Assembly: GCF_018729455.1 (NCBI RefSeq)
Contig: NZ_JAHHZF010000006.1
Span: 196,942-260,941 of the forward strand
Direction: 5' to 3'
Length of the DNA stretch: 64,000 nucleotides
Source: Prosthecodimorpha staleyi
Lineage (GTDB): Bacteria > Pseudomonadota > Alphaproteobacteria > Rhizobiales > Ancalomicrobiaceae
Notes under the pieces: generated by a model
Databases searched by the model: none
What the model was told of the DNA's origin: nothing
The model's input: only the letters and a program-made list of their open reading frames with translations
Translations under genes and position numbers: made by a program
Shown: positions 6,375 to 63,706 of the stretch, piece by piece
Numbering within the stretch: the stretch's first letter is position 1
Layout: the number at the start of each line of letters is the position of its first letter

Positions 6375-6818
6375 TTCTTCAGTTCCTTCTCAATAGGATT
6401 GGATCCATGACGAAACGGAAGAGCGATTTCGTCTTCGTCTTTATCGCCGGCGAGGGTTCGTTCGTTTTGAAGAACCATTCGTTGTTGTAAGAAGTAACAA
6501 TGTTTCGCTGAATGTCGGCTGAACTCGCTGTCAGAAACCGGACTGAAACATCACGTCGGCGTGATCCGGCGGCCAGCTGTTCCCGCAGGAACTGACATGC
6601 ACTCGAAGTCGACGTCCCGCCCGACTTCGACCAAGCGACGGCTTGGCCCGGCCGGCCAGCAGGGGTACAAGGCGCGCAGGCATTGCCGGCCCCGCGCCGT
6701 CGCCAGAACGGGTTCCCGCCGGACGGCTCCTGTCGGCCGCGGCAGCCCGCGCCAGCCGTAAACGTCAGGCCGGAACCGTCGGCAAGGACCGGCATTCCGT
6801 CCGAGAGGGGAGCCTCCC
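6375..6818. other. 444-bp intergenic region, no gene seen
   Basis: Divergent space between the small secreted protein gene and fumarase. The left 170 bases are clearly less GC-rich (TTTCGTCTTCGTCTTTATCG, AAGAAGTAACAATG) and probably hold the secreted protein promoter. Open frames here are shadow-like with no family resemblance. Confidence 0.6.
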
Positions 6819-8453
6819 ATGACCGTCCAGTCGCCGCCGCCCTATGTGCATATGCCGCTCTTCCCGCTCGCCAAGGACGAGACGCCCTATCGCAAGCTGA
6901 CCGGCGAGCATGTCTCGGTCGAGCGGATCGGCGGCCGCGAGGTGCTGACGGTCGCGCGCGAGGGGCTTCGCCTGCTCGCCGAGGCGGCGATGTCCGACAT
7001 CAACCATCTGCTGCGCCCCGGCCATCTGGCTCAATTGGCCAAGATCCTCGACGATCCGGAGGCGACCGACAACGACCGCTTCGTCGCCTACGATCTCCTG
7101 AAGAACGCCAACATCGCCGCCGGCGGCGTGCTGCCGATGTGCCAGGATACCGGCACGGCGATCGTGATGGGCAAGAAGGGGCGCCTGGTCTGGACCGAGG
7201 GCGACGACGAGAGCGCGCTCGCCGAAGGCATCCGCGACGCCTATCTGCGCAAGAACCTGCGCTACTCGCAGCTCTCCCCGGTCTCGATGTTCGAGGAGAA
7301 GAACACCCGCAACAACCTGCCGGCGCAGATCGACATCTATGCCGAGGGCGAGGATGCCTACAAGTTCCTGTTCGTCGCCAAGGGCGGCGGCTCGGCCAAC
7401 AAGACCTTCCTCTACCAGGCGACGCCGTCGGTCCTGACCGAGGACCGGCTGATCGCCTTCCTGAAGGAGAAGATCCTGACGCTCGGCACCGCCGCCTGCC
7501 CGCCCTACCATCTGGCGGTAGTGATCGGCGGCACGTCGGCGGAACTGAACCTGAAAACCGTCAAGCTCGCCTCCGTGCGCTACCTGGACGGCCTGCCGAC
7601 GCAGGGCTCGGAAGCCGGCCACGCCTTCCGCGACCTGGAGATGGAAGCCAAGATCCACAAGCTGACCCAGTCACTCGGCGTCGGCGCGCAGTTCGGCGGC
7701 AAGTATTTCTGTCACGACGTGCGCGTCATCCGCCTGCCGCGCCACGGCGCCTCGCTGCCGATCGGCCTCGGCGTGTCCTGCTCGGCCGACCGGCAGGCGA
7801 TGGGCAAGATCACCCGCGACGGCATCTATCTGGAGGAGCTGGAGCACAATCCGGCGCGCTTCATGCCCGACATCGACGAGAGCCGGCTCGGCGGCGACGT
7901 GGTGCGCGTCGACCTGAACCGGCCGATGGCCGACATCCTGGCCGAACTCAGCCGCCACCCGATCAAGACCCGCCTGTCGCTGACCGGCCCACTGATCGTC
8001 GCCCGCGATCTCGCCCACGCCAAAATTCGCGAGCGGCTCGATCGCGGCGACGGCATGCCGGACTATTTCAAGAACCACCCGGTCTACTATGCCGGCCCGG
8101 CCAAGACGCCCGAGGGCTATGCCTCCGGCTCGTTCGGCCCGACCACGGCCGGCCGCATGGACAGCTATGTCGACCAGTTCCAGTCCTTCGGCGGCTCGAT
8201 GGTGATGCTCGCCAAGGGCAACCGGTCGGCCGCGGTGCGCGAGGCCTGCAAGCGCCACGGCGGCTTCTATCTCGGCTCGATCGGCGGCCCCGCGGCCCGG
8301 CTCGCACAGGACTGCATCAAGCATGTCGAGGTGCTCGAATACCCGGAACTCGGCATGGAGGCGATCTGGAAGATCGACGTGGTCGATTTCCCGGCCTTCA
8401 TCGTCACCGACGACAAGGGCAACGACTTCTTCCAGGAACTCAATCTCGGCTGA
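6819..8453 (+). CDS. class I fumarate hydratase (4Fe-4S)
   Basis: 544-residue iron-sulphur fumarase of the FumA/FumB single-chain type, converting fumarate and malate in the TCA cycle. The N-terminal cluster-binding Cys is at about residue 108 ([10 protein letters not shown]), with the later [11 protein letters not shown] and [12 protein letters not shown] motifs; the C-terminal beta subunit-like half starts near LNRPMADIL and contains [11 protein letters not shown]. Length is normal. AGAGGGGAG precedes the ATG. Oxygen-labile fumarases of this type are common in diazotrophic Alphaproteobacteria. Symbol left blank because fumA/fumB numbering cannot be fixed. Confidence 0.95.
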
Positions 8454-8579
8454 CCCGCCGCCACCCCGACTGCCGGATCGGACGCGGCGTCGGGCCGCCG
8501 GGTCCGATCGCCGCGCCGGTCTCCACCTCCGGCGGCCGGGCGGCGGCGTTCGATCGGAGACGGGCGGCCATCGCGGACG

Positions 8580-9641
8580 TCAGCCGGCGTGGTGCCGCTT
8601 GCGGGCGAACTGAGCGACCGTCCGGCGGGCCTCGGCGGGGTCCATGCGCAGATAGTCCTCGCGCTCGAATCGGACCTGGGCCTCGGAGAAACCGAGGCGG
8701 CGGCGGCGCATCTTGACCACCACGTCGAAGGTCTTCGGCGACACGTCGATCCCGCGCAGAAGCTTGATCGCCCCGCTCGCGTCGGAGCGGACCAGCACCT
8801 TCAGGACCGACAGTTCGTCGATGTCGGCGACATGGGCCAGAATCGCAGCCAGATCGTTGCACCGGTCATGGCCGGCAAGATCGGCGACGACCGCGTCCAC
8901 GGACAGACGGCCCGCCTTGATCTGGGCCAGAAGCGCGGCCATGTCCATCAGATGCGGCGGTGTGACCGGAGCCGCCGGCGCCGCGGTAGGGCTCGGCTGC
9001 GGCGCCGGCCGATTGGCGATGCGGCCGCGCAGCCGTTTGGCCACCAGCATCACCAGATGCTCGGCATCGGCCTCCGGCAGATCCGAACGCCGCGTCAGTG
9101 CCACACACAGTTCGTCGTCGGTCTCGGCTTTCGCCAGCAAGTCGCGCAGGAACCGGGGCGAGATCTCGGCTTCCGCATTGGCGGCCACGGTGCGCCATAC
9201 GGTCATGTCGCCGCGTTCGAACAGGAGGTCGGTCACCGCCGTCGTCAACTGCGGGCGGCGCGCGATCGCCGCCAGATGCGGGTTGGAGAGACGGCCGGCC
9301 CAATCCTTGAGCGTCTCCTCGCCGAGCGCCGGATTGGCGACCAGCACCGGTGCGGCCACCTCCGGGATGTCCTCGCACAGGGCGGACAGCAGCGGTGCCG
9401 GCAGGTGTTCGCAGTGAGCCACGACGGTGGCCAGTTCGGTGCGGGTCTGGGGATCGACCTTGGCCAGAAGCTGCAGGGTGATATCGGCGAACAGCGCAAC
9501 TTCGACGGCGCTCGGCTGGCGATCCGAGAACACACACTGCGTCAGCAGGCGAAGCAGCTCGCCGCGGTCGGTCCCGTGGGCCTCGAGGGCGATTTCCTGC
9601 AATCGTTTAAGTACCGTCACCTTGCCCCCCTTGGCGGTCAT
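8580..9641 (-). CDS. DUF2336 domain-containing protein
   Basis: Alpha-helical repeat protein of about 353 residues resembling the DUF2336 family of Alphaproteobacteria (function unknown). The N-terminal half carries HEAT-like helical repeats (APVLVANPALGEETLKDW, LSNPHLAAIARR), a Pro/Ala-rich linker around APQPSPTAAPAAPVTPP, and a C-terminal helical part ending with YLRMDPAEARRTVAQFARK. Start is uncertain: ATG 9641 is used; a GTG at 9620 directly after GGGGGGCAAG is an attractive alternative, and the open frame runs to 9794. No neighbour explains its role. Confidence 0.75.
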   Translation of the reverse strand: MTAKGGKVTVLKRLQEIALEAHGTDRGELLRLLTQCVFSDRQPSAVEVALFADITLQLLAKVDPQTRTELATVVAHCEHLPAPLLSALCEDIPEVAAPVLVANPALGEETLKDWAGRLSNPHLAAIARRPQLTTAVTDLLFERGDMTVWRTVAANAEAEISPRFLRDLLAKAETDDELCVALTRRSDLPEADAEHLVMLVAKRLRGRIANRPAPQPSPTAAPAAPVTPPHLMDMAALLAQIKAGRLSVDAVVADLAGHDRCNDLAAILAHVADIDELSVLKVLVRSDASGAIKLLRGIDVSPKTFDVVVKMRRRRLGFSEAQVRFEREDYLRMDPAEARRTVAQFARKRHHAG

Positions 9642-9939
9642 CCGGTGCCCGACGGTTGCATGCCATACTGTTATTCCAAACTCTAAGATAAGGCTTAACA
9701 ACGGCGCCCGGACCCGGCGCGGCATTGCCGCAGCGCAGGCCGCCACCGCCAAGCCCATGCTGCAGCGCAGCGTGGCCTGACAGATACAGAACACAGTAAA
9801 TTGACGGATTGGCGCAATCCCGCCACGGGTTCGGCTTGCCTTGATGGGGGCAGGTCAACAATATGGCAATCCTATGCCGCTGGACTCGTCTCATCGGACG
9901 TCCGGGCGTGTGTCGGATTTTGAACCGAGAGAGGTCGGT

Positions 9940-10572
9940 ATGCGCGCAGCAAAGCTGTTGGCGGGGGCGGGTTTCGTTGGCCTGGTGGCTGGCACCCTGA
10001 CCTACGGTGCCATGGCGGAATACAATCCCGGAATCGAGATCCGCTATGACGCCACCGGCCGTGCGGTCGAAGGGCCGGGCATCACGGTTCCCGGACCGGG
10101 TTCGAGCGGCGCCTACGGCCGCAACTATACGCCGATCCCGCGCGAAGTGGTGGATTACAAGTCGGGCGGCAGCGCCGGCGACATCGTCATCAACACCGCC
10201 GAACGCCGCCTCTATCTGATTCTCGGCGGTGGCAAGGCGCTGCGCTACGGCATCGGCGTCGGCCGGCCGGGCTTCACCTGGGGCGGCAACCAGACCGTCA
10301 CCCGCAAGGCCGAATGGCCCGGCTGGACCCCGCCGCCGCAGATGCGTCAGCGCGTGCCGAATCTGCCGGCCTACATGGCCGGTGGCCCGGACAACCCGCT
10401 CGGTGCCCGTGCGCTCTATCTCGGCTCGACCTTCTACCGCATCCACGGCTCCAACGAGCCCTGGACGATCGGCCAGGCGGTCTCCTCGGGCTGCTTCCGC
10501 ATGACCAACGACGACGTGACCGATCTCTACGAGCGCGTCCGTGTCGGCGCCCGCGTGTCCGTCATTCACTGA
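9940..10572 (+). CDS. L,D-transpeptidase (ErfK/YbiS/YcfS/YnhG family)
   Basis: 210-residue periplasmic enzyme that forms 3-3 cross-links in peptidoglycan or anchors proteins to it. A signal peptide or membrane anchor spans the first 25 residues. The YkuD catalytic motif is complete: His in YRIHGSNEPWTIGQ and the Cys in SSGCFRMTNDD. The ATG at 9940 follows GAGAGAGGTCGG; the open frame extends upstream to 9841 without a better start. Closed by a 15-bp-stem terminator. Confidence 0.92.
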   Translation: MRAAKLLAGAGFVGLVAGTLTYGAMAEYNPGIEIRYDATGRAVEGPGITVPGPGSSGAYGRNYTPIPREVVDYKSGGSAGDIVINTAERRLYLILGGGKALRYGIGVGRPGFTWGGNQTVTRKAEWPGWTPPPQMRQRVPNLPAYMAGGPDNPLGARALYLGSTFYRIHGSNEPWTIGQAVSSGCFRMTNDDVTDLYERVRVGARVSVIH

Positions 10573-10591
10573 CGGATCGAGTTCGAATCCG

Positions 10592-10632
10592 GACAAGGCC
10601 GGCGGGAGCAATCCCGCCGGCCTTGTCGTATC
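10592..10632 (+). terminator. strong hairpin terminator after L,D-transpeptidase
   Basis: Perfect 15-bp stem (10592-10606 with 10613-10627), loop AGCAAT, followed by GTATCG. Few trailing T residues, but the stem is very stable. Confidence 0.75.
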
Positions 10633-10710
10633 GATCGTGCGGAACCGGCCAGGGTCGGACAGCCGGGCGTGAGAGACCGCCTCTGGCCGCAAGTCACGGC
10701 ATTTGTCCGC

Positions 10711-10821
10711 CAGTCGCCGCGGTTCGCGGCTTGCTTCCGCTTATCGCCGCGGTTCGCGGCTTGCTTCCGCTTGTCGCCGCGGTTCGCGGCTTGCTTCCGC
10801 TTGTCGCCGCGGTTCGCGGCT
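10711..10821. repeat. 30-bp tandem repeat, about 3.7 copies
   Basis: Near-identical 30-bp units begin at 10711, 10741, 10771 and 10801 (the last partial). On the minus strand each unit codes for [10 protein letters not shown]. The units differ only in their first three bases; in the second unit TTA replaces TTG, creating the stop codon of the DUF971 gene. Confidence 0.95.
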
Positions 10822-11172
10822 CAGGCCCTTCGCGTCCAGTTCGGCGAGATATTCGCCCCAGATGCGATCGCGCTCGCGGCCGAGCCGGGCCAGATAGTCC
10901 CAGCCATAGATGCCGCTCGAATGCATGTCGTCGAAGCTCAGCCGGACGGCGTAGTTGCCGACCGGCTCGACGGCCAGGATCTGCACCGCCGACTTGCCCG
11001 GAACCGTCTTGCGCTCGGCCGGGGAATGCCCCTGCACCTCGGCCGACGGGCTGGTGACGCGCAGATACTCGGCCGAGAGCGCATGGCTCTCGCCGCCTTC
11101 GAAGCTCACGGTCAGCGTGCGGCGGTCCTTGGCGAGGCGCAGTTCGGTCGGCCAGGGCGTTGTCGCGGTCAT
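10741..11172 (-). CDS. DUF971 domain-containing protein with repeat-derived tail
   Basis: 143-residue protein with the DUF971 (gamma-butyrobetaine hydroxylase N-terminal-like) domain over the first 115 residues: [30 protein letters not shown], and the terminal [14 protein letters not shown]. Such domains occur alone in Fe-S cluster or Mrp-linked proteins; exact role unknown. The C-terminus has two copies of a 10-residue repeat plus half a third, produced by the 30-bp tandem array, and the stop is created by a single base difference inside the array. Start at ATG 11172 fits the family; the frame continues upstream to 11394. Divergent from moaA. Confidence 0.85.
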
Positions 11173-11359
11173 GGGCCAGGATCCTCTCGGCAGGGCTTCG
11201 AACAACAGCCCGGTCCGGCCGGACATACGGCGCCACACGGCCGCCGGCAAGCCCGCGCGGGGCCATGGTGCCGCCCTGCCGGCCCGGCGCCCGCAAAAGG
11301 CATGGCATTCCGGCTTTGCCATGCCATATAACAGCCTCGGGAGTGAGCCGGAGGGCAGC

Positions 11360-12388
11360 ATGAATTCCGCCAGCGCGGGTGTCGCGAACCACATGCCGCT
11401 GATCGATCCGTTCGGACGGGCGATTTCCTATCTGCGCGTCTCGGTCACCGACCGCTGCGACTTCCGCTGTGTCTATTGCATGGCCGAGGACATGACCTTC
11501 CTGCCCAAGCGGGACGTGCTCAGCCTCGAGGAACTGGACCGGCTCTGCTCCGCCTTCGTGGCGCGCGGCACCCGCAAGATCCGGCTGACCGGCGGCGAGC
11601 CGCTGGTGCGCAAGGACATCATGACGCTGTTCCGCTCCCTGTCGCGCCACCTCGAGTCGGGCGCGATGGAGGAACTGACCGTGACCACCAACGGCTCGCA
11701 GCTCGCCCGCTATGCGTGCGACCTGAAGGCCTGCGGGGTGGAACGGATCAACGTCTCGGTCGACACGCTCGATCCGGTCAAGTTCAAGGCGATCACGCGC
11801 TGGGGCGATCTGGCCAAGGTCCAGGCCGGCATCGAGGCCGCGCTGGCGGCGGGGCTGAAGATCAAGATCAACGCCGTGGCTCTGAAGGGCGTCAACGAGC
11901 ACGAGATCGACGACATGATCCGCTGGGCCCATGCCGACGGCATGGATCTGACCCTGATCGAGACCATGCCGCTCGGCGACATCGACGGCGACCGCACCGA
12001 CCAGTATCTGCCCCTGTCGCAGGTCCGCGCCGATCTGATGGACCGCTGGACACTGCAGGACATCGACTACCAGACCGGCGGTCCGGCGCGCTATGTGCGC
12101 GTCGCGGAGACCGGCGGCCGGATCGGTTTCATCACGCCGCTGACGCATAATTTCTGCGAAAGCTGCAACCGGGTGCGCGTGACCTGCACCGGCACGCTCT
12201 ACATGTGCCTCGGCCAGGAAGATGCCGCCGATCTGCGCCTGCCGCTGCGCCAGTCGGAAAGCGACGCCCCGCTCCACGCCGCCATCGACGAGGCGATCGG
12301 GCGCAAGCCGAAGGGCCACGATTTCATCATCGACCGCCGGCAGGCCAAGCCGGCCGTCTCCCGGCACATGAGCGTGACGGGCGGCTGA
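11360..12388 (+). CDS. moaA: GTP 3',8-cyclase MoaA
   Basis: Radical-SAM enzyme making the first committed intermediate of molybdenum cofactor from GTP. The N-terminal SAM cluster cysteines are Cys33, Cys37 and Cys40 (CDFRCVYC); the second, substrate-binding cluster is in [15 protein letters not shown]. The catalytic C-terminal Gly-Gly is present (SVTGG). Length (342) is normal. The ATG at 11360 follows GGAGGG. Moco supports nitrate, formate and similar enzymes; nitrogenase uses a different cofactor made with NifEN. mobA lies at 22.4 kb. Confidence 0.97.
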
Positions 12389-12453
12389 AAACGGCCCGGC
12401 GCCAGCCGGTCCGGCGCCTGATGGTCCGGCGCGCGCTCCGACAATCGCATGCG

Positions 12454-12490
12454 CAAAGGCCCGGTCTCGCGACCGGGCCTTTGGCTTTGA
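12454..12490. terminator. bidirectional hairpin terminator between convergent genes
   Basis: Perfect 13-bp stem CAAAGGCCCGGTC / GACCGGGCCTTTG with loop TCGC, between moaA (+) and the secreted protein gene (-). Confidence 0.75.
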
Positions 12491-12509
12491 ATTGATTTCG
12501 TTCGCCGGA

Positions 12510-14189
12510 TCAGAAGCCGATGCCGAAGCCGCCGCGACGGCCGAGGCCGATGCCGATCGAGATCGGCGGGCCGCTATATTGCGGCTGCGGGGGCGGCGGC
12601 GGCGCGGCGGCCGGAGCCGGTGCGACACGCCGGGCGACCGGCGGGGGCGCGGCCTCGTCGTTGACGCGGCGGACCACGACCTTGCGCGCGGGCGTCGCCT
12701 CTTCGGCGCGCTGTGTCTTCGGCTTCACCACCGTGGTGGTCTTTTCCTTGACCGGCTGGACCTTGGCCTTGGCCGGCTGGGACGAGCCGTTGTCGTCGGT
12801 CAGCTTGGCGACGACGCCCTTCTTGCCCTTGGCCGGAGCCTTGGTGTCGGAGACCGGTTCGAGCGGCTGGATCGCGGCGACCGGGGGCGGCGCGGCGTTG
12901 GTCGTCGTCACGGGCTGCGTCACGGCCGGAACCGGGGCGAGCGCGACGGGGGCCGGGGTGGTGACGGCAACCGGGGTTGTCAGGGCCACCGGGGCGGGGG
13001 TCACGAGCGTGGCCGGCGTCGTGGTCACAGTTGTGGTCGTGGTCACCGGCGCGACGGACAGGACCGGGCCGGCATCGTTGCGAGTCGCACTCGGCGCCAG
13101 GGCAAGCTGCAGACACGGGCCGGTGGTCACGCCGACGCGGCTGACGGTGCTTCCGAGCAAGGCGGCAGCGATGCGGTCGTCGTCGCCGCTGCGCTCGATG
13201 CCGAAGTCCGGCGCGGCAGAGGCGAGCACGATGCGCGTGCCGTCGGCGAACCGTCCGTCGATCGCCCCGGACCGATAGCCATAATCGGCCAGAACGGCCT
13301 GCAGGACACGCATCCGGTCCGGATCGCTGGTCGGGCGGCCGTCGGCTGTGGTCTTCGGGGTGCGGGTGCAGAAGCGCGCTTCGGTGTCGCCGAGGCCGGC
13401 CTGCAGGCGCCAGGTCAGCTTGGCCTCGACCGGAGCCCCCGGCTTCAACTGGGCCAGCTTGGCCAGGCACACCGCGCCGCCCTGCATGGCGTAGCAGTTC
13501 CAGGCGTCGGAAGCGCGCAGGAAGGTGCCGGCGCTGGCGGGCAGATCGATCATCACCGCGACGCGGCGGTCGTCGGTGGCCGGGCGATGGGTTTCGGAGA
13601 CCAGGCTGATCTCGCACTCCGCATCCTTGCGGCAGGCTTGCGCCTGCGTCAGATGCACGTCGATCATCGGCTCGGAGGCATGAGGCAGGGACGCGGTCGC
13701 CGCGCCCGAAACGCTGGCGGCGGCATTGCGCACCTCGAGCCCCTGGCCTTCGCGGATCAGGCATTCGCGCGTCGTCAGGCGACGGGCATCCTCGCGATAG
13801 CCCTGGGCGTCGCGCACGCGCCGCAGCGTTTCGCGCAGGTCGGCGCGCATCATCTCGGCGGTCTTGCCGGCGCCCGGGTCGCGCTCCGCGGCCAGTTCCT
13901 GCTCGATGACCTTCTTCTGCAGGTCCTCGGCGCGGGCGGTGGTGCGGGAAATGAACTGCTCGGCTTCGACCACGAGCCAGTCGCGGTCCTTCATGCAGAC
14001 CGGTCCGCCCGGCAGCGGCGGCAACTCGGCGATCACGATGCGCCCGGCGCCCGCGCCGGCCGACTGGGCGGCCGCGGGTCCGGCGACAAGAGCGGTGCCG
14101 GCCAGAAGTGCGGCGGCGAGGGCGCCGTGCCGGGCAAAGGCCGCGGCCGTGCGAATATCCAACGAGGTCGCGCCCCGGTCGGTGGTCAT
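12510..14189 (-). CDS. large secreted protein with low-complexity C-terminal half
   Basis: 559 residues. N-terminal signal peptide ends about AAAQS at residue 40. A globular Cys-containing region follows (GGPVCMKDRDWLVVEAEQF, QACRKDAECEISL, DAWNCYAMQGGAVCLAKL), then a segment resembling a peptidoglycan-binding domain: VLQAVLADYGYRSGAIDGRF. The last 200 residues are Thr/Pro/Ala/Val and Lys rich, ending in a Gly-rich GLGRRGGFGIGF. AAAGGAGG lies 7 bases before the chosen ATG; the frame extends to 14384 without need. Family unknown; a periplasmic or wall-associated structural protein is the best guess. Confidence 0.75.
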   Translation of the reverse strand: MTTDRGATSLDIRTAAAFARHGALAAALLAGTALVAGPAAAQSAGAGAGRIVIAELPPLPGGPVCMKDRDWLVVEAEQFISRTTARAEDLQKKVIEQELAAERDPGAGKTAEMMRADLRETLRRVRDAQGYREDARRLTTRECLIREGQGLEVRNAAASVSGAATASLPHASEPMIDVHLTQAQACRKDAECEISLVSETHRPATDDRRVAVMIDLPASAGTFLRASDAWNCYAMQGGAVCLAKLAQLKPGAPVEAKLTWRLQAGLGDTEARFCTRTPKTTADGRPTSDPDRMRVLQAVLADYGYRSGAIDGRFADGTRIVLASAAPDFGIERSGDDDRIAAALLGSTVSRVGVTTGPCLQLALAPSATRNDAGPVLSVAPVTTTTTVTTTPATLVTPAPVALTTPVAVTTPAPVALAPVPAVTQPVTTTNAAPPPVAAIQPLEPVSDTKAPAKGKKGVVAKLTDDNGSSQPAKAKVQPVKEKTTTVVKPKTQRAEEATPARKVVVRRVNDEAAPPPVARRVAPAPAAAPPPPPQPQYSGPPISIGIGLGRRGGFGIGF

Positions 14190-14370
14190 GACGATGCCTC
14201 CTTTCCGCCGCGCTGCGGTTCGGGCTCCGCTCGCGCGGTCGCCGCAATCGCTGCGGATACATTCATGATAATGCTTACTGACCTGAAGCTGAACCCACCC
14301 TGAACGAGAGGGTCGAGCCGAAAGGCGGCAAAGTCGTGACCGCCGCGCGGCACCCGCTCCGGGAGGTCCG

Positions 14371-14715
14371 ATGATCGCCGTCATATTCGAGGTCTTCCCC
14401 GCCGAAGGCCAGCGCCAGCGCTACCTGGAGATCGCCGCCGCGCTGCGGGCCGATCTGGAAGCCGCCGACGGCTTCGTTTCGGTCGAACGTTTCGAGAGCC
14501 TGACCACGCCGGGCAAGTTGCTTTCGGTGTCGTTCTGGCGCGACGAGGCTGCTGTCGCCGCCTGGCGTGCAAAGGCGCGGCATCGCTCGGCGCAGGCTGC
14601 CGGCCGCAGCGGCATTTTCTCCGGATACCGCCTCCGGGTGGCCGCGGTGCTGCGCGACTACGGCATGGACGAGCGGGCGGAAGCGCCTGCTGACAGCCTG
14701 GCGTCCCTCGGATGA
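14371..14715 (+). CDS. antibiotic biosynthesis monooxygenase (ABM) domain protein
   Basis: 114-residue dimeric ferredoxin-like alpha/beta barrel protein. The ABM pattern is visible: beta-strand start IAVIFEVFPAEGQ, ERFESLTTPGKLLSVSFW, then AWRAKARHRSAQ. The family includes quinol monooxygenases, haem-degrading enzymes and stress proteins; the substrate cannot be inferred. GGGAGG is 4 bases before the ATG. Divergent from the large secreted protein gene. Confidence 0.85.
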   Translation: MIAVIFEVFPAEGQRQRYLEIAAALRADLEAADGFVSVERFESLTTPGKLLSVSFWRDEAAVAAWRAKARHRSAQAAGRSGIFSGYRLRVAAVLRDYGMDERAEAPADSLASLG

Positions 14716-14890
14716 CCGTTGAAACGGGAGCGCGATTGCCCAATGCATAGCCACATCCCGCCTCCGGACGTTGCCGAGCCGGGTCCGGGCGTCTAGATCA
14801 GGGGCATCGGTCATTTTGCCGAAGCGCGATCCAATGCCCTGCCGTCTCGGCGGGGCCTCCCTCCCCCGCCCTCCCTCGACCGGACCCGCC

Positions 14891-15817
14891 ATGCCCGCCG
14901 CCCCGCGCGACAATGCTCGCGGCATCCTGGCCATGAATGCCGCCTCGGTGGCCTTCATCGTCGGTGATTCGATCGTGAAGGCCGTCTCGACGGCGATGCC
15001 GCTCGGCCAGATCATGGTCTTGCGCGGCGCCGTGGCGAGTGCCCTGCTGGTCGCCTTGTGCCTCTGGACCGGCGCCTTCGCGGCCTGGCGGACGCTGTTC
15101 CACCCGACCCTCGGCTATCGGCTGGTCGGCGAAATCGGCGCGACGCTGCTTTATGTGACGGCACTGATGTACATGCCGCTCGGCAATGCGACCGCCATCT
15201 TCCAGGTGACCCCGCTCGCGATCACGGCGGCCGCGGCGCTGTTCCTGGGCGAGACGGTCGGCTGGCGGCGCTGGACGGCGATCCTGGTCGGCTTCGGCGG
15301 CGTGCTGATCATCATCCGGCCGGGCTTTGCGGGTTTCGACCGGTCCGCCTTCCTGGTGCTCGGCGCGGTCTTCTTCGTCGTGCTGCGCGATCTGGCCACC
15401 TCACAGATGCCGGCGGGCGTGCCGACCCCGCTGGCGGTTCTCAACACCGCCTCGGCCGTGATGGTCACCGGATTCGTGCTGATCCCCTTCGAGGGCATCT
15501 TCTCGCGCTACACCGAATGGCAACCGGTCTCCGACCGGCATGCCGGCCTGCTCGCCCTGGCCGGCTGCGTGCTGGTGCTCGGCTACATGCTGCTGACCTT
15601 CGCCATGCGGGTCGGCGACATGTCGGTGGTCGCGCCGTTCCGCTATGCGCTGCTGATCTGGTCCTTCCTCGCCGGCCTGATCTTCTTCGGCGACGTGCCC
15701 GATCGCTGGACCCTGCTCGGCGCCGCGATCGTGGTCATGACCGGCATCTACAGCTTCCAGCGCGAACGCCTGCGCGCCCGCGCCCAGCGCGCCGCCGCTT
15801 CGGGCCCCGTGCCATGA
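14891..15817 (+). CDS. DMT (EamA) family transporter
   Basis: Inner membrane protein of about 308 residues with ten predicted helices and two EamA repeats (first ends near LGETVGWRRWTAILVGFGG, second near IFFGDVPDRWTLLGAAIVV). Drug/metabolite exporters of this kind move amino acids, nucleosides or metabolites; substrate unknown. The start is uncertain (ATG 14891 chosen; 14933 possible, open frame to 14771). Its stop overlaps the following MFS start in ATGA, indicating a two-gene operon. Confidence 0.88.
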   Translation: MPAAPRDNARGILAMNAASVAFIVGDSIVKAVSTAMPLGQIMVLRGAVASALLVALCLWTGAFAAWRTLFHPTLGYRLVGEIGATLLYVTALMYMPLGNATAIFQVTPLAITAAAALFLGETVGWRRWTAILVGFGGVLIIIRPGFAGFDRSAFLVLGAVFFVVLRDLATSQMPAGVPTPLAVLNTASAVMVTGFVLIPFEGIFSRYTEWQPVSDRHAGLLALAGCVLVLGYMLLTFAMRVGDMSVVAPFRYALLIWSFLAGLIFFGDVPDRWTLLGAAIVVMTGIYSFQRERLRARAQRAAASGPVP

Positions 15818-56738: not shown

Positions 56739-57029
56739 ATGCAGGCATTTTCGATCGACGACCTGAAGCAGCGGCCACGCTCGATCGAAGACGCGGCGCG
56801 CCGGGAGCCGGTCACGATCCGGGATGCCGGCGAGGAGTTCGTCTTGATGACACGCCGCGCCTTCGACGCCCTGCAGGGAGCCATCCCGAAAACGGACATC
56901 TTGCCGAAAGCCATCCAGGCCGGCCCGTATCGGCGCGCGCATGCTGTCGACGATCTGCCCGAGGACCTTGCCGACGAACTGCTCGAAGGCTTGGCGCAGG
57001 CTGCCAAGACGCCGTATCGGATCGACTGA
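56739..57029 (+). CDS. Phd/YefM-like antitoxin
   Basis: 96 residues. N-terminal Phd-type DNA-binding motif IDDLKQRPRSIEDAARREPV followed by TIRDAGEEFVLMTRRAFDAL, then a disordered toxin-neutralising tail (DDLPEDLADELLEGLAQA). 6 bases before the PemK-like gene. Divergent from metH (77 bases), so its promoter and operator share that gap. Confidence 0.75.
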   Translation: MQAFSIDDLKQRPRSIEDAARREPVTIRDAGEEFVLMTRRAFDALQGAIPKTDILPKAIQAGPYRRAHAVDDLPEDLADELLEGLAQAAKTPYRID

Positions 57030-57035
57030 GCCGCC

Positions 57036-57467
57036 ATGGCCAGCCTGCCGGCGCCGGTCGAAGGTCTCGTGGTCCGCTACGAATATCTTTGGGCCCGCGA
57101 GCACGATGCCGGGCGCGTGTCGTCCAAGGACCGGCCGGCCTGCGTGATGGTCGTCTCGTCGATGCAGGCCGGGACCGGGGCCCGGCGTGTCTATCTGGCG
57201 CCGATCACCCATTCCGAACCCGCGCCCGGCACGCCTGCCCTGGCGCTTCCGGCCGACGAGAAACGGCGCCTCGGTCTCGACGACCTGCCGTCCTGGCTGA
57301 TCCTGTCCGAGGTCAATGTCGACATCTGGCCGGAAGGCCTTGCGAACGCGCAGGGCGCCGAGAACGGCGTCTACGGCCGCCTGTCCCACCCGCTCTATCG
57401 GCAGGCCGCCGAACGTCTCGCGGCCGAAGTCCGGGCCGGGACGGTCCGCCGGATCCCCCGCCCCTGA
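57036..57467 (+). CDS. PemK/MazF-like toxin
   Basis: 143 residues. Resembles the alphaproteobacterial PemK-like growth inhibitor family: VEGLVVRYEYLWAREHDAGR, KDRPACVMVV, VYLAPITHSEPAP and LILSEVNVDIWPEG. These act as mRNA endonucleases; catalytic residues are not confirmable from the sequence alone. Partner of the preceding antitoxin. Its stop is 2 bases from the metF stop (convergent). Confidence 0.75.
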   Translation: MASLPAPVEGLVVRYEYLWAREHDAGRVSSKDRPACVMVVSSMQAGTGARRVYLAPITHSEPAPGTPALALPADEKRRLGLDDLPSWLILSEVNVDIWPEGLANAQGAENGVYGRLSHPLYRQAAERLAAEVRAGTVRRIPRP

Positions 57468-60414: not shown

Positions 60415-61272
60415 ATGTCCAAGCCTGACCTGATCGTCGCCCTCGGCGAGCGCCGCTATGCCGTCGAGCGCCCCTGGCCGCAGGGGCCGGAGGCGCGCGC
60501 ACTCAAGGGGATCACCGATGTCGCAGTCGACAGTCGCGGACAGGTGCTGGTCTATCAGCGCATCGACAGCCTGGTCGACGCGCCGATCGATCCGGTCGCG
60601 GTGTTCGATGCCGCAGGTCAATGCGTCGGAGCCTGGGGCCGCGACGCGGTGGTCGACGCCCATTCGCTGTCGGTCGCGCCCGATGGACGTATCCTGCTGA
60701 TCGACCGCGATGCCCATCAGGTGCTGATCTTCGATGCCGATTTCCGCCCGCTCGGGAGCCTCGGCGAACGGCACGGGCCGAACCGGCCCTTCAACCACCC
60801 GACCGATGTGGCGGTTGCGCCGAGCGGCGACATCTACGTCGCCGACGGCTACGGCGCCGCCCATGTCCACCGCTTCGATGCCACCGGCCGCCTGATCCAG
60901 ACCTGGGGCAGGCCCGGACGGGGACCGGGCGAATTCACCACGCCGCACGGTATCGCCGTCTTAGCCGACGGCCGCGTCCTGGTCGGCGACCGCGAGAACG
61001 ACCGCGTCCAGGTCTTCACCCCGGAGGGGGCCTTCCTGGCCGCCTGGGGCGATTTCTTCCACCCGATGGATATCCATGTCGACGCGACCGGCCTCGTCCA
61101 CGTCACCGATCAGATCCCGCGCCTGTCGCTGCTCTCCCCCGACGGCGCCCTCCTCGGCCGCTGCCGCCCCGTCCTCAACGGCGCCCACGGCATGTCCAGC
61201 GACACGGCCGGCAACCTCTACCTCGCCGAAATGGTCCCGAACCGGGTCACGAGGCTGAGGCGGTTGGGGTGA
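60415..61272 (+). CDS. NHL-repeat beta-propeller protein
   Basis: 285 residues with about five or six NHL blades (DVAVDSRGQVLVYQR, SLSVAPDGRILLIDRD, DVAVAPSGDIYVADGYG, GIAVLADGRVLVGDREND). Resembles the propeller of peptidyl-alpha-amidating lyase-like proteins and bacterial six-bladed propellers, with no evident enzyme motif. No signal peptide, so cytoplasmic. Overlaps the convergent HTH gene by 26 bases. Confidence 0.85.
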   Translation: MSKPDLIVALGERRYAVERPWPQGPEARALKGITDVAVDSRGQVLVYQRIDSLVDAPIDPVAVFDAAGQCVGAWGRDAVVDAHSLSVAPDGRILLIDRDAHQVLIFDADFRPLGSLGERHGPNRPFNHPTDVAVAPSGDIYVADGYGAAHVHRFDATGRLIQTWGRPGRGPGEFTTPHGIAVLADGRVLVGDRENDRVQVFTPEGAFLAAWGDFFHPMDIHVDATGLVHVTDQIPRLSLLSPDGALLGRCRPVLNGAHGMSSDTAGNLYLAEMVPNRVTRLRRLG

Positions 61273-62293
61273 TGGGCCGGCGGCGTTGCGAGCTTATGGC
61301 CAGAAACTGCTCGACGCCGGACCGGATCCGGTTTGCCGGCAGGGAATGAACCCCAAACAGCCCAAAGAGCGGCATGAGCAATTGACCGACCACGAGGGGC
61401 ATCGCTTCCGGCAATTCGGCAGCCGGAACGGCCGTTTCCGACGAACAGCCATCGCTGCGCGCCGGGTGCACATGGACACCGAGATCTTCGAGCGGATTGA
61501 CCCATGACTTCAGTTGGCGCGCTGTCAGCCCTGAATAGACGACACGAAGCCTGATGTCGGGAAGCGCAGCGTCGTCCTTCGCCAGTTGGCGCGCAAGGTG
61601 GTGGGCGTGGAGCAAAGCTTCGCAGCTTCGCCAGATTGGAATAACCCAATCGAAGATCGTGCGAGGTTGAAAGCCAATCTGAGAATCCTCTTCGAAGCCC
61701 CTGAGGATCACAGCGCGCCCGTCCGGTGCGACACGCCAGAAGTCGCATCGCGCAGCATCGCTGAAGGTTCGGTCCACCCCTTCGAAGCCGTCCGGCTTCA
61801 GCCAAGTCTCGATGAGGCCGTCGATCTCGATCGGTGACAGTCCGGACTGCTCGCGCACCATGAACAGGGGCCAGCCGGTATGCGGTTGCGCCGAAGCGGC
61901 GAGGATTCGCCTCAACTCGGCCGGGCGGACCTGACGCAGGTCGCCATCCAGCCAATAGTCGAACCGGAACCATCCATGCGGAAAGCGCGCCGGGGTGTCC
62001 GGCTCCAGCCGTTCCATCAGATCGCGCCAGCGCGCCATGGCCTCGCGCACGAAGCGGTCCTGGGCATCCTCAGGCGGGCGTTCTTCGAGCAGGCCGACCA
62101 CGCGCAGGATGTCGAAGGCCTTGGCGAGCGTCAGGGTCGTCTCGCCGCGCTCGAAGGCCGCCAGGGTCGGGATGCTGACGCCAGCCAGCGCCGCGTGGTC
62201 GCGCTGGGTCAGGCCCTCGGCCTTGCGGCGGCGCAGGGCCTCCGCGACGAGATCGGGCCAGGCGAGCGGGGTCAACCGAGCAGTCTCAGGCAT
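61247..62293 (-). CDS. XRE-HTH protein with large C-terminal domain, HipA partner
   Basis: 348 residues. HTH of the XRE/HipB type at about 12-58 (EGLTQRDHAALAGVSIPTLAAFERG). The rest, about 290 residues, includes YWLDGDLRQVRPAELRRIL, HTGWPLFMVREQSGL, DFWRVAPDGRAVILRGFEED and FDWVIPIWRSCEALLHAHHL; as I recall, similar segments occur at the C-terminus of some AlbA/Schlafen-type HTH proteins. This is far larger than HipB (about 90 residues). The HipA gene is immediately upstream and overlaps by 22 bases, so order is hipA then hipB-like. Expected: DNA binding, autoregulation, neutralisation of the kinase. Confidence 0.85.
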   Translation of the reverse strand: MPETARLTPLAWPDLVAEALRRRKAEGLTQRDHAALAGVSIPTLAAFERGETTLTLAKAFDILRVVGLLEERPPEDAQDRFVREAMARWRDLMERLEPDTPARFPHGWFRFDYWLDGDLRQVRPAELRRILAASAQPHTGWPLFMVREQSGLSPIEIDGLIETWLKPDGFEGVDRTFSDAARCDFWRVAPDGRAVILRGFEEDSQIGFQPRTIFDWVIPIWRSCEALLHAHHLARQLAKDDAALPDIRLRVVYSGLTARQLKSWVNPLEDLGVHVHPARSDGCSSETAVPAAELPEAMPLVVGQLLMPLFGLFGVHSLPANRIRSGVEQFLAISSQRRRPITPTASAS

Positions 62294-63432
62294 TGGCTCT
62301 CGACGATCTCCGAAAAGCGATGGACGAAGCCATCCGGCGGCTCGCCCTGCGGCGGTCTGATCAGTGGCGCGGCCTTGGCGACGCCGCGCTTCAGATCGGC
62401 GAATGCCTGCCGGATCGCCGGCGCCGGGAGGCCGATCTCGCGACCGAAATTCTCGAAATCCGCGCGGGCGATCTCGCCCGTCTGCCGCCGGCGTCCGCCG
62501 AGCGCGAGCGCGAACTCGCCGTCGAAGCGATCGCCATAGACCAGCGTGTTGAGCACGTCATAGACCGGCGACAGGCGCAGCCCCTCAGGACGCTCCAACA
62601 GGGAGAAGTTCTTCAGATGCGCATCGCAATTGCCAATCAGCGCATAGACGACGAGGCGGCGGAAGAAGCGCGCCAGATCGATCACCGGCCGCGCCGAATG
62701 GCGCTTTATCGCGCCGGCCACATCCTCGTAGGACGCCTCGTACTTGCCGCGGTGGTTGTGCCCCTGCGGCCTGGACAGAATCTGGGCGCAGTCCTCCAGC
62801 CGCAGCCGCTGTCCCCGCGCATCGCGGTCGAAGCGATGGACGATCAAGGCATGGTCGTCGAAGCCGCCGACGCCGCCGGCCTCGAAGGCGGTCACCTCGT
62901 CCCGACCGAGCACGGCCGCCGTCCAGCGCAGGCTCAGCAGTTCGTTGCGCACGAAGGTCGGATTGGCGTCCGAGTTGAACTTGGCGATAAACGGCGCGGC
63001 GCCCTCGGCCGGCGCCGGGAGAAATCCCGTGGCACCGCGGACGACGAGCAGCTTGCGCTGGACGCCCGACACGGTGCGGCCCGGATTGACGGTCGGGTCG
63101 ATGACGGCGTCGGATCGCCCCTCCCCGGTCTCCGCCGCAACGCTGATCGCCCCGATGCAGTCGGCGCCGTAGCGGACGAGCAGGCCGAAATCATCCTCGA
63201 TGGCCAGCCGTGCGACCCGCGCCTGCCCCTCGCGCAGCCAGCCTTCCGTGCCGAGATGCTCGAACACCGGATGCAGGCCGACCGGCCAGTCATGCTCGCG
63301 GCAGGTCGCCGGCAGCGCGCAGGCGATGTCCTGCTGCCAGCCGGCATCGTAGTCGAAACGCGTGCCGCGTTCCGTCTCGATCAGATGCCCGGCCGGCTGG
63401 CCCTTGAACAGGATCCTGGCGATGCGCCCCAT
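62272..63432 (-). CDS. HipA-family serine/threonine kinase toxin
   Basis: 386 residues, single-chain HipA (N-subdomain 1 present, unlike split HipS/HipT). Gly-rich loop TVSGVQRKLL near 120-129 (position of the autophosphorylated Ser is Thr/Ser), Lys151 in FIAKFN, catalytic Asp270 in GNCDAHLKNFSLL, Mg Asp292 in SPVYDVLNT. HipA kinases phosphorylate tRNA synthetases or other targets. ATG 63432 begins MGRIARILF; open frame to 63453. Translationally coupled to the HTH gene downstream. Confidence 0.9.
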   Translation of the reverse strand: MGRIARILFKGQPAGHLIETERGTRFDYDAGWQQDIACALPATCREHDWPVGLHPVFEHLGTEGWLREGQARVARLAIEDDFGLLVRYGADCIGAISVAAETGEGRSDAVIDPTVNPGRTVSGVQRKLLVVRGATGFLPAPAEGAAPFIAKFNSDANPTFVRNELLSLRWTAAVLGRDEVTAFEAGGVGGFDDHALIVHRFDRDARGQRLRLEDCAQILSRPQGHNHRGKYEASYEDVAGAIKRHSARPVIDLARFFRRLVVYALIGNCDAHLKNFSLLERPEGLRLSPVYDVLNTLVYGDRFDGEFALALGGRRRQTGEIARADFENFGREIGLPAPAIRQAFADLKRGVAKAAPLIRPPQGEPPDGFVHRFSEIVESQCLRLLG

Positions 63433-63522
63433 GGCGAAACCATAACTCCACACGGAGCCGAATGCGCGGCTCCGCTCCCTATTTCAGGAGTCATAGCTTA
63501 ATTTTCAAGGACCCGATCCGGA

Positions 63523-63545
63523 AAATGAAGCCTCAGCTTTCATTT
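63523..63545. promoter_or_regulatory. operator-like inverted repeat 1 upstream of hipA-like gene
   Basis: AAATGAAGC-CTCA-GCTTTCATTT, an inverted repeat with one extra base in the right arm, about 90 bases upstream of the HipA start. First of three related sites; likely target of the HTH protein. Confidence 0.6.
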
Positions 63546-63564
63546 CCAAGAACGATGCCCAAAA

Positions 63565-63582
63565 ATGAAATCATACCTTCAT
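63565..63582. promoter_or_regulatory. operator-like inverted repeat 2
   Basis: ATGAA-N8-TTCAT, same half-sites as repeat 1 with wider spacing. Confidence 0.5.
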
Positions 63583-63617
63583 ATGGAAAGGGGAAGGCGC
63601 GGATCGCCCCAGAGGAC

Positions 63618-63635
63618 GAAGCTATGCTTTCATTT
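63618..63635. promoter_or_regulatory. operator-like inverted repeat 3
   Basis: GAAGC-TAT-GCTTTC followed by ATTT, related to repeat 1. It is nearer the ettA gene, so it could also affect it. Confidence 0.5.
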
Positions 63636-63706
63636 CGGATCGGTCGAAACCCGCGCTTCGACCGGCTTGGCGGCACCGGCGCGCGGACGCGCCGGTGGCT
63701 GGGGCA

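Follow-up and report, generated by a model that had tools for sequence, protein, structure and literature searches.

A reverse-order HipA module of Prosthecodimorpha staleyi with a HipB-like partner that carries the tail of SLFN_AlbA_2 proteins

The stretch analysed here, called the window, comprises 64,000 nucleotides of contig NZ_JAHHZF010000006.1 from Prosthecodimorpha staleyi. Its minus strand contains a two-gene locus in which a HipA-family kinase gene is followed by the gene of an XRE-type helix-turn-helix (HTH) protein with a long C-terminal tail (Table 1). A first-pass annotation, made from the letters of the DNA, had described a HipA-like kinase followed by an overlapping 348-residue XRE-HTH protein, and this arrangement is borne out by the open reading frame (ORF) coordinates, the Pfam matches and the 22-nt overlap. 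The span of 61247-63706 assigned to it holds a real module and is slightly generous in extent, as the module together with its operator-like sites occupies approximately 61247-63640.

Table 1. Features of the HipA locus in the window; distances are counted from the hipA ATG.
Feature	Coordinates	Strand	Size, residues or distance	Description
hipA	62272..63432	-	386 aa	HipA-family Ser/Thr kinase, full-length, first gene of the operon; from Pfam and residue alignment
HipB-like partner	61247..62293	-	348 aa	XRE HTH plus tail of ~270 aa; start overlaps the 3' end of hipA by 22 nt
HipB-like HTH	62083..62266	-	residues ~10-70	homologous to the minimal 66-78 aa HipBs of sister reverse-order HipAs
Tail	61250..62062	-	residues 78-348	also makes up the C-terminal half of SLFN_AlbA_2 proteins; compact alpha/beta fold predicted
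Divergence island	61270..61920	-		in the tail; nucleotide identity scan against P. hirschii
5' leader	63433..63500	-		predicted strong hairpin pairing the GGAG ahead of the hipA start; includes the proximal operator-like site
Operator-like site AAGCTATGACTC	63488..63499	-	-67	1 mismatch to AAGNYATRNCTT
Degenerate operator-like site	63528..63539	-	-107	inside the near-perfect inverted repeat AAATGAAAGCTGAGGCTTCATTT
Operator-like site AAGGTATGATTT	63568..63579	-	-147	1 mismatch to AAGNYATRNCTT
Operator-like site AAAGCATAGCTT	63619..63630	-	-198	1 mismatch to AAGNYATRNCTT

The kinase and its HTH partner

The hipA gene was read from the ATG at 63432 to the stop at 62272, and the same ORF also opens with the GTG at 63453. 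Both HipA domains were found in the product (HipA_C, E 2.3e-40; Couple_hipA, 1.4e-16), which assigns it to the HipA kinase family, and the HipA of Prosthecomicrobium hirschii is 92% identical to it. The kinase residues K181, D309, K313, N314 and D332 of E. coli HipA are kept in the alignment as K151, D270, K274, N275 and D292. In the partner, HTH_3 (E 5.2e-9) and couple_hipB (E 6.1e-10) span only residues 21-68. The couple_hipB score of 38.9 bits lies below the NCBI cut-off of 71.65 bits; the domain belongs with the HipB-type XRE HTH partners and is 50-57% identical to minimal HipBs. Neither PD-Lambda-4_A (PADLOC) nor AlbA_2 (PF04326, Pfam) was matched in the partner, and DUF3037 and DUF1829, the partner domains of HipAD, had no Pfam match in the window proteins.

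With the kinase gene first and the HTH gene second, the locus has the reverse-order hipAB/hipEB arrangement and differs from the classic type II hipBA, where hipB lies upstream and encodes approximately 70-100 aa. The first-pass annotation had drawn attention to this order. It is not special to the module: in the survey of Gerdes et al. 2021 (PMC8262856), subclades of clades VI and VII and also HipE (hipEB) are described with the kinase gene first, and we also observed reverse order with minimal 66-78 aa HipBs. The locus shares with hipBA of E. coli (HipA/HipB) and with reverse hipAB/hipEB the HipA fold and motifs, an HTH partner in the same operon and multiple operators, which are putative here. 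What sets it apart is the 348-aa partner with its tail of about 270 aa; the main text of PMC8262856 mentions neither such a tail nor AlbA.

Recurrence, origin and relatives of the tail

Protein searches returned 16 loci with an HTH-tail gene, and HipA was found directly ahead of it, usually overlapping, in 16/16. These loci are carried by alphaproteobacterial chromosomes, by megaplasmids of Sinorhizobium (pSymA), Ensifer, Azospirillum and Sphingobium, and by one 65-kb contig labelled viral. Their spread is patchy, with HTH-tail genes in 6 of the 385 genomes of the class and none in the congener G839. The proteins in which the same tail follows an N-terminal AlbA_2 domain instead of an HTH do not stand beside HipA (0/15 loci; Fisher p 3e-9, indicative only, since the loci are related to one another). 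The suggestion that HipA and HTH-fusion genes form a distinct two-gene module is thus upheld by their recurrence, and the contrary case, in which homologues of the tail never adjoin HipA, was looked for and not encountered.

A search centred on HipA showed that HipAs at least 43% identical to the window copy all have the tail, whereas reverse-order HipAs at 29-37% identity have a bare 66-78-aa HTH partner. The tail-bearing HipAs form one group in the tree (84/95; 88% of bootstrap trees), which was rooted at the midpoint and has some weak forks. Because the more distant reverse-order HipAs have a bare HTH as HipB, the tail is most parsimoniously an add-on to a minimal HipB, apparently acquired once. 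At one further locus (L093, 5794-7430) the partner of a reverse-order HipA was observed to be an HTH with DUF1488, a second add-on, unrelated to the tail, that occupies the same C-terminal place on the minimal HipB. The bare HipBs of sister HipAs together with this fusion suggest that the core antitoxin and repressor would be the HTH, with a C-terminus that accepts add-ons. An empty-site comparison with G839 gave no clean insertion boundary, as conservation of the flank ends near 63685 and G839 also lacks the NHL gene. A tail remnant with neither HTH nor HipA, apparently decayed, was noticed at L008 (1486-2253).

The tail, of about 270 residues, matched no family in Pfam, NCBIfam or PADLOC. 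The first-pass annotation had likened it to the C-terminal part of AlbA/Schlafen-type HTH proteins, and the likeness to AlbA/Schlafen-type proteins proved correct. The HTH-less tails make up the C-terminal half of proteins opening with SLFN_AlbA_2 (five tested in Pfam, four above or near the cut-off), and the remaining HTH-less tail ORFs carry the same N-terminal motifs. Independent profiles of HTH-tails and AlbA-tails were aligned by hhalign with E 1.8e-68 over 247 columns, and the HTH-tails form one clade (97/96) among the AlbA-tails. The tail also matches phrog_38563 (E 2.5e-13), a PHROG entry for an AlbA_2-tail protein of unknown function; a search of phage genome records gave no match.

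Charged and aromatic residues in DFWR, RGYxED and GLxxR are invariant in the tail. The AlphaFold2 model of the tail, built from an alignment of seven sequences, is a compact alpha/beta fold (pLDDT 81, pTM 0.83). No confident match to it was found with Foldseek in the PDB, where a known fold may have been missed because the alignment had seven sequences. The full protein gave only HTH/HipB matches in the PDB and BFVD, and a sequence search of the PDB with the partner matched the HTH part only. A TBP-like fold was considered for the tail and discarded, as the Foldseek matches were weak (probability <=0.21, TM ~0.2) and were judged unreliable.

The genes around these relatives are varied. A TIR-domain protein (PADLOC ThsB/PDC-S66-like) lies directly upstream of an AlbA_2-tail gene (L068, 31-2290), and the two are a possible two-gene system. 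On an Asticcacaulis plasmid, another such gene adjoins that of an MBL-fold protein with similarity to LmuA (Lamassu) and PDC-M48B (L035, 2873-5738). Others stand beside type III restriction-like genes (L067), beside PRTase-CE, NADAR and DUF2971 genes (L073) or beside a DUF3800 gene (L036). A phage contig has an AlbA_2-tail gene between Mu-F-like and capsid genes of the head cluster, a moron-like position (L069, 805-5955), and one copy is split by a frameshift and apparently decayed (L034, 4386-5776). Two loci with HipA were also observed to carry further genes or domains. In one (L098 of G318, 10971-15597), the genes downstream of HipA and the HTH-tail gene encode an N6/N4 DNA methylase and an SNF2/ResIII-like helicase and together form a restriction-like cluster. 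In the other (L074, G588:C1:270000-289000; 6787-12653), HipA is followed by a single 1573-aa ORF consisting of a HipB-like HTH, the tail and PD-Lambda-4_A, an anti-phage protein (residues 322-1571, PADLOC E 8e-193). The HipA of this locus is nested inside the tail clade, and ArdC- and ParB-like genes lie upstream. PD-Lambda-4 was rejected as a regular partner, since the plasmid homologues inspected are stand-alone.

Operator-like sites, leader and mosaic divergence

The related inverted repeats reported upstream of hipA in the first pass are real, comprising three copies of the palindromic 12-mer AAGNYATRNCTT with at most one mismatch and a degenerate fourth (Table 1). The motif was found upstream of hipA at 10 of the 16 homologous loci, often with a 40-bp spacing (-67, -107 and -147). 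It was counted 18 times against 0.46 expected from mononucleotide shuffles of the 16 loci, an excess that is somewhat inflated because the motif was derived from the same loci; the same spacing across species is support independent of that derivation. The conserved operator-like sites suggest autorepression of the operon, and the autoregulated locus that had been expected is likewise suggested by the recurrence of these putative operators upstream of HipA. In addition, the predicted leader hairpin (-32.5 kcal/mol, z -3.9) is shared with P. hirschii (z -5.1), hinting at translational control of hipA. A scan for sigma-70 promoters found nothing.

Nucleotide identity with P. hirschii is about 92% across the NHL gene, the HTH, HipA and ABC-F, but is lower inside the tail, with 53-66% over 61324-61683 and about 82% over 61684-61923. 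Between these two codon sequences, synonymous divergence (pS) is 0.21-0.23 in HipA and the HTH and 0.38-0.68 in tail residues 126-325, and amino-acid identity is 44-64% from residue 201 on. An independent pair (L045/L047) has a different island, at residues 126-200, with 36-64% identity between flanks of 88-100%. In both pairs of close relatives, HipA and the HTH are approximately 91-100% identical while segments of the tail diverge, and in each pair none of 2000 permutations of the scan reached the value of the island. A frameshift was dismissed as the cause, as the motifs are in frame and the alignment is ungapped there. Comparisons within S. meliloti and among Azospirillum strains revealed no such island in the tail. 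Because synonymous divergence is raised in the islands, they point to imported divergent alleles rather than to point selection. Their confinement to the tail would fit a recognition domain with allelic swapping.

Proposed function and competing explanations

The natural triggering of HipA kinases is a long-standing open question. We propose, giving it about an even chance, that the locus is a toxin-first two-gene HipA toxin-antitoxin module, most likely a switch for abortive infection or mobile-element conflict with the tail as sensor. At rest, the HTH of the partner would bind the operators upstream of hipA and repress the operon, and the large partner would keep HipA inactive. The tail, acquired as a module from proteins of the AlbA_2 type, would be the recognition part and would bind an invader-derived ligand, either a protein or a nucleic acid. 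Once bound, the ligand would upset the complex, setting HipA free and lifting repression of the operon, and the freed HipA would phosphorylate a translation factor and bring about growth arrest. Targets of the HipAs studied are of the GltX/TrpS type. The sequence supports the intact kinase, the obligatory pairing, the conserved operators, the add-on origin of the tail, its homology to AlbA_2 proteins and the localised allelic divergence; toxicity, neutralisation, repression, sensing, trigger, target and defence are what we infer from there.

The proposal also draws on the TIR, MBL-effector and restriction-like neighbours of AlbA_2-tail genes, on the phage head cluster that holds one of them, on the fusion to PD-Lambda-4_A and on the anti-phage precedents HipAD and PD-lambda-2. 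Several observations weigh against this proposal. The autophosphorylated S150 of E. coli HipA is aligned to T120 here, so regulation of the kinase may differ from that in E. coli. The window copy does not lie in a defence island and is surrounded by housekeeping genes (metH, metF and ABC-F). Many AlbA_2-tail genes are orphans with no defence neighbour, the fusion of HTH and tail to PD-Lambda-4_A was seen in one genome only, and neutral import of a divergent allele can also make local islands.

The tail might, in an ordinary stabilisation or persistence toxin-antitoxin module, only enlarge the HipA-binding interface or tune antitoxin stability, with no sensing. Carriage on large plasmids (pSymA and those of Azospirillum, Sphingobium and Ensifer), where addiction modules are common, and the constant pairing of the tail with HipA in HTH-tail loci would agree with such a role. 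We nevertheless hold it unlikely, as sister HipAs get by with bare 66-aa HipBs, the same tail is used without HipA in AlbA_2 proteins, and tail alleles are replaced locally with HipA unchanged, which is unexpected for a toxin-binding surface. The quick local divergence also suits recognition more than catalysis and so counts against a two-warhead system, in which the tail would itself be an effector, for example on nucleic acids, controlled by HipA and the HTH. Such a system appears quite improbable, since the tail resembles no enzyme family by sequence (Pfam, NCBIfam and PADLOC) or fold (Foldseek) and in every case is joined or adjacent to another effector, even though the invariant DFWR, RGYxED and GLxxR could form an active site, AlbA_2 is nucleic-acid-associated and the tail has been fused to PD-Lambda-4_A. 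The housekeeping neighbourhood and the operator-like sites would be in keeping with a ligand-responsive regulator of HipA that serves host physiology (a metabolite or stress) and is unrelated to mobile elements. The patchy spread with plasmid carriage and the phage and defence contexts of the tail relatives make this very improbable.

A wider form of the sensor proposal is possible but doubtful. The tail may be a general plug-in recognition domain for conflict with phages and mobile elements, swapped between N-terminal heads (HipB HTH and AlbA_2) and deployed alongside effectors of unrelated kinds (the HipA kinase, TIR, an MBL-fold effector and PD-Lambda-4), and its alleles may be traded in segments so that the target of sensing changes. 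The HTH-tail protein would then be an antitoxin-repressor doubling as an immune receptor.

Known systems offer partial parallels. The HipR (Stl-like) antitoxins of HipF/HipG combine an HTH with a further domain for which sensing of phage proteins has been proposed (PMC8262856). The window partner is likewise a putative HTH antitoxin with an extra domain, but HipR comes first in its operon and its domain is Stl-like; there were no Stl structures among the top 50 Foldseek matches listed for the tail. In HipAD (DS-6), a HipA-family kinase with a non-HipB partner was found by experiment to be anti-phage and to need its kinase activity (PMC13092281). A non-standard HipA partner is the common point, although that of HipAD is DUF3037 with DUF1829 and lacks similarity to HipB. 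PD-lambda-2, an abortive phage defence of HigB and a HigA-peptidase fusion that requires a third component (PMC9519451), also pairs a toxin with an XRE antitoxin bearing a fused C-terminal domain, but it differs in its HigB-type toxin, its peptidase domain and its third component. No description of a HipA partner with an HTH and an AlbA-type tail was found in the open-licence papers searched.

The locus presents a putative antitoxin-repressor with a separable domain of its own history, absent in sister modules, common to AlbA_2 proteins of phages and plasmids, joined in one case to a known anti-phage protein, and mosaic between close relatives. This separate history and mosaicism make the trigger directly testable with natural tail alleles. 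If the tail is indeed a sensor, a function would also be provided for the phage protein family phrog_38563.

Elsewhere in the window, a second possible toxin-antitoxin pair was noticed on the plus strand between metH and metF (56739-57467); a 143-aa ORF of no clear family follows its antitoxin, which has a weak match to Phd/YefM (E 4e-4, below the cut-off).

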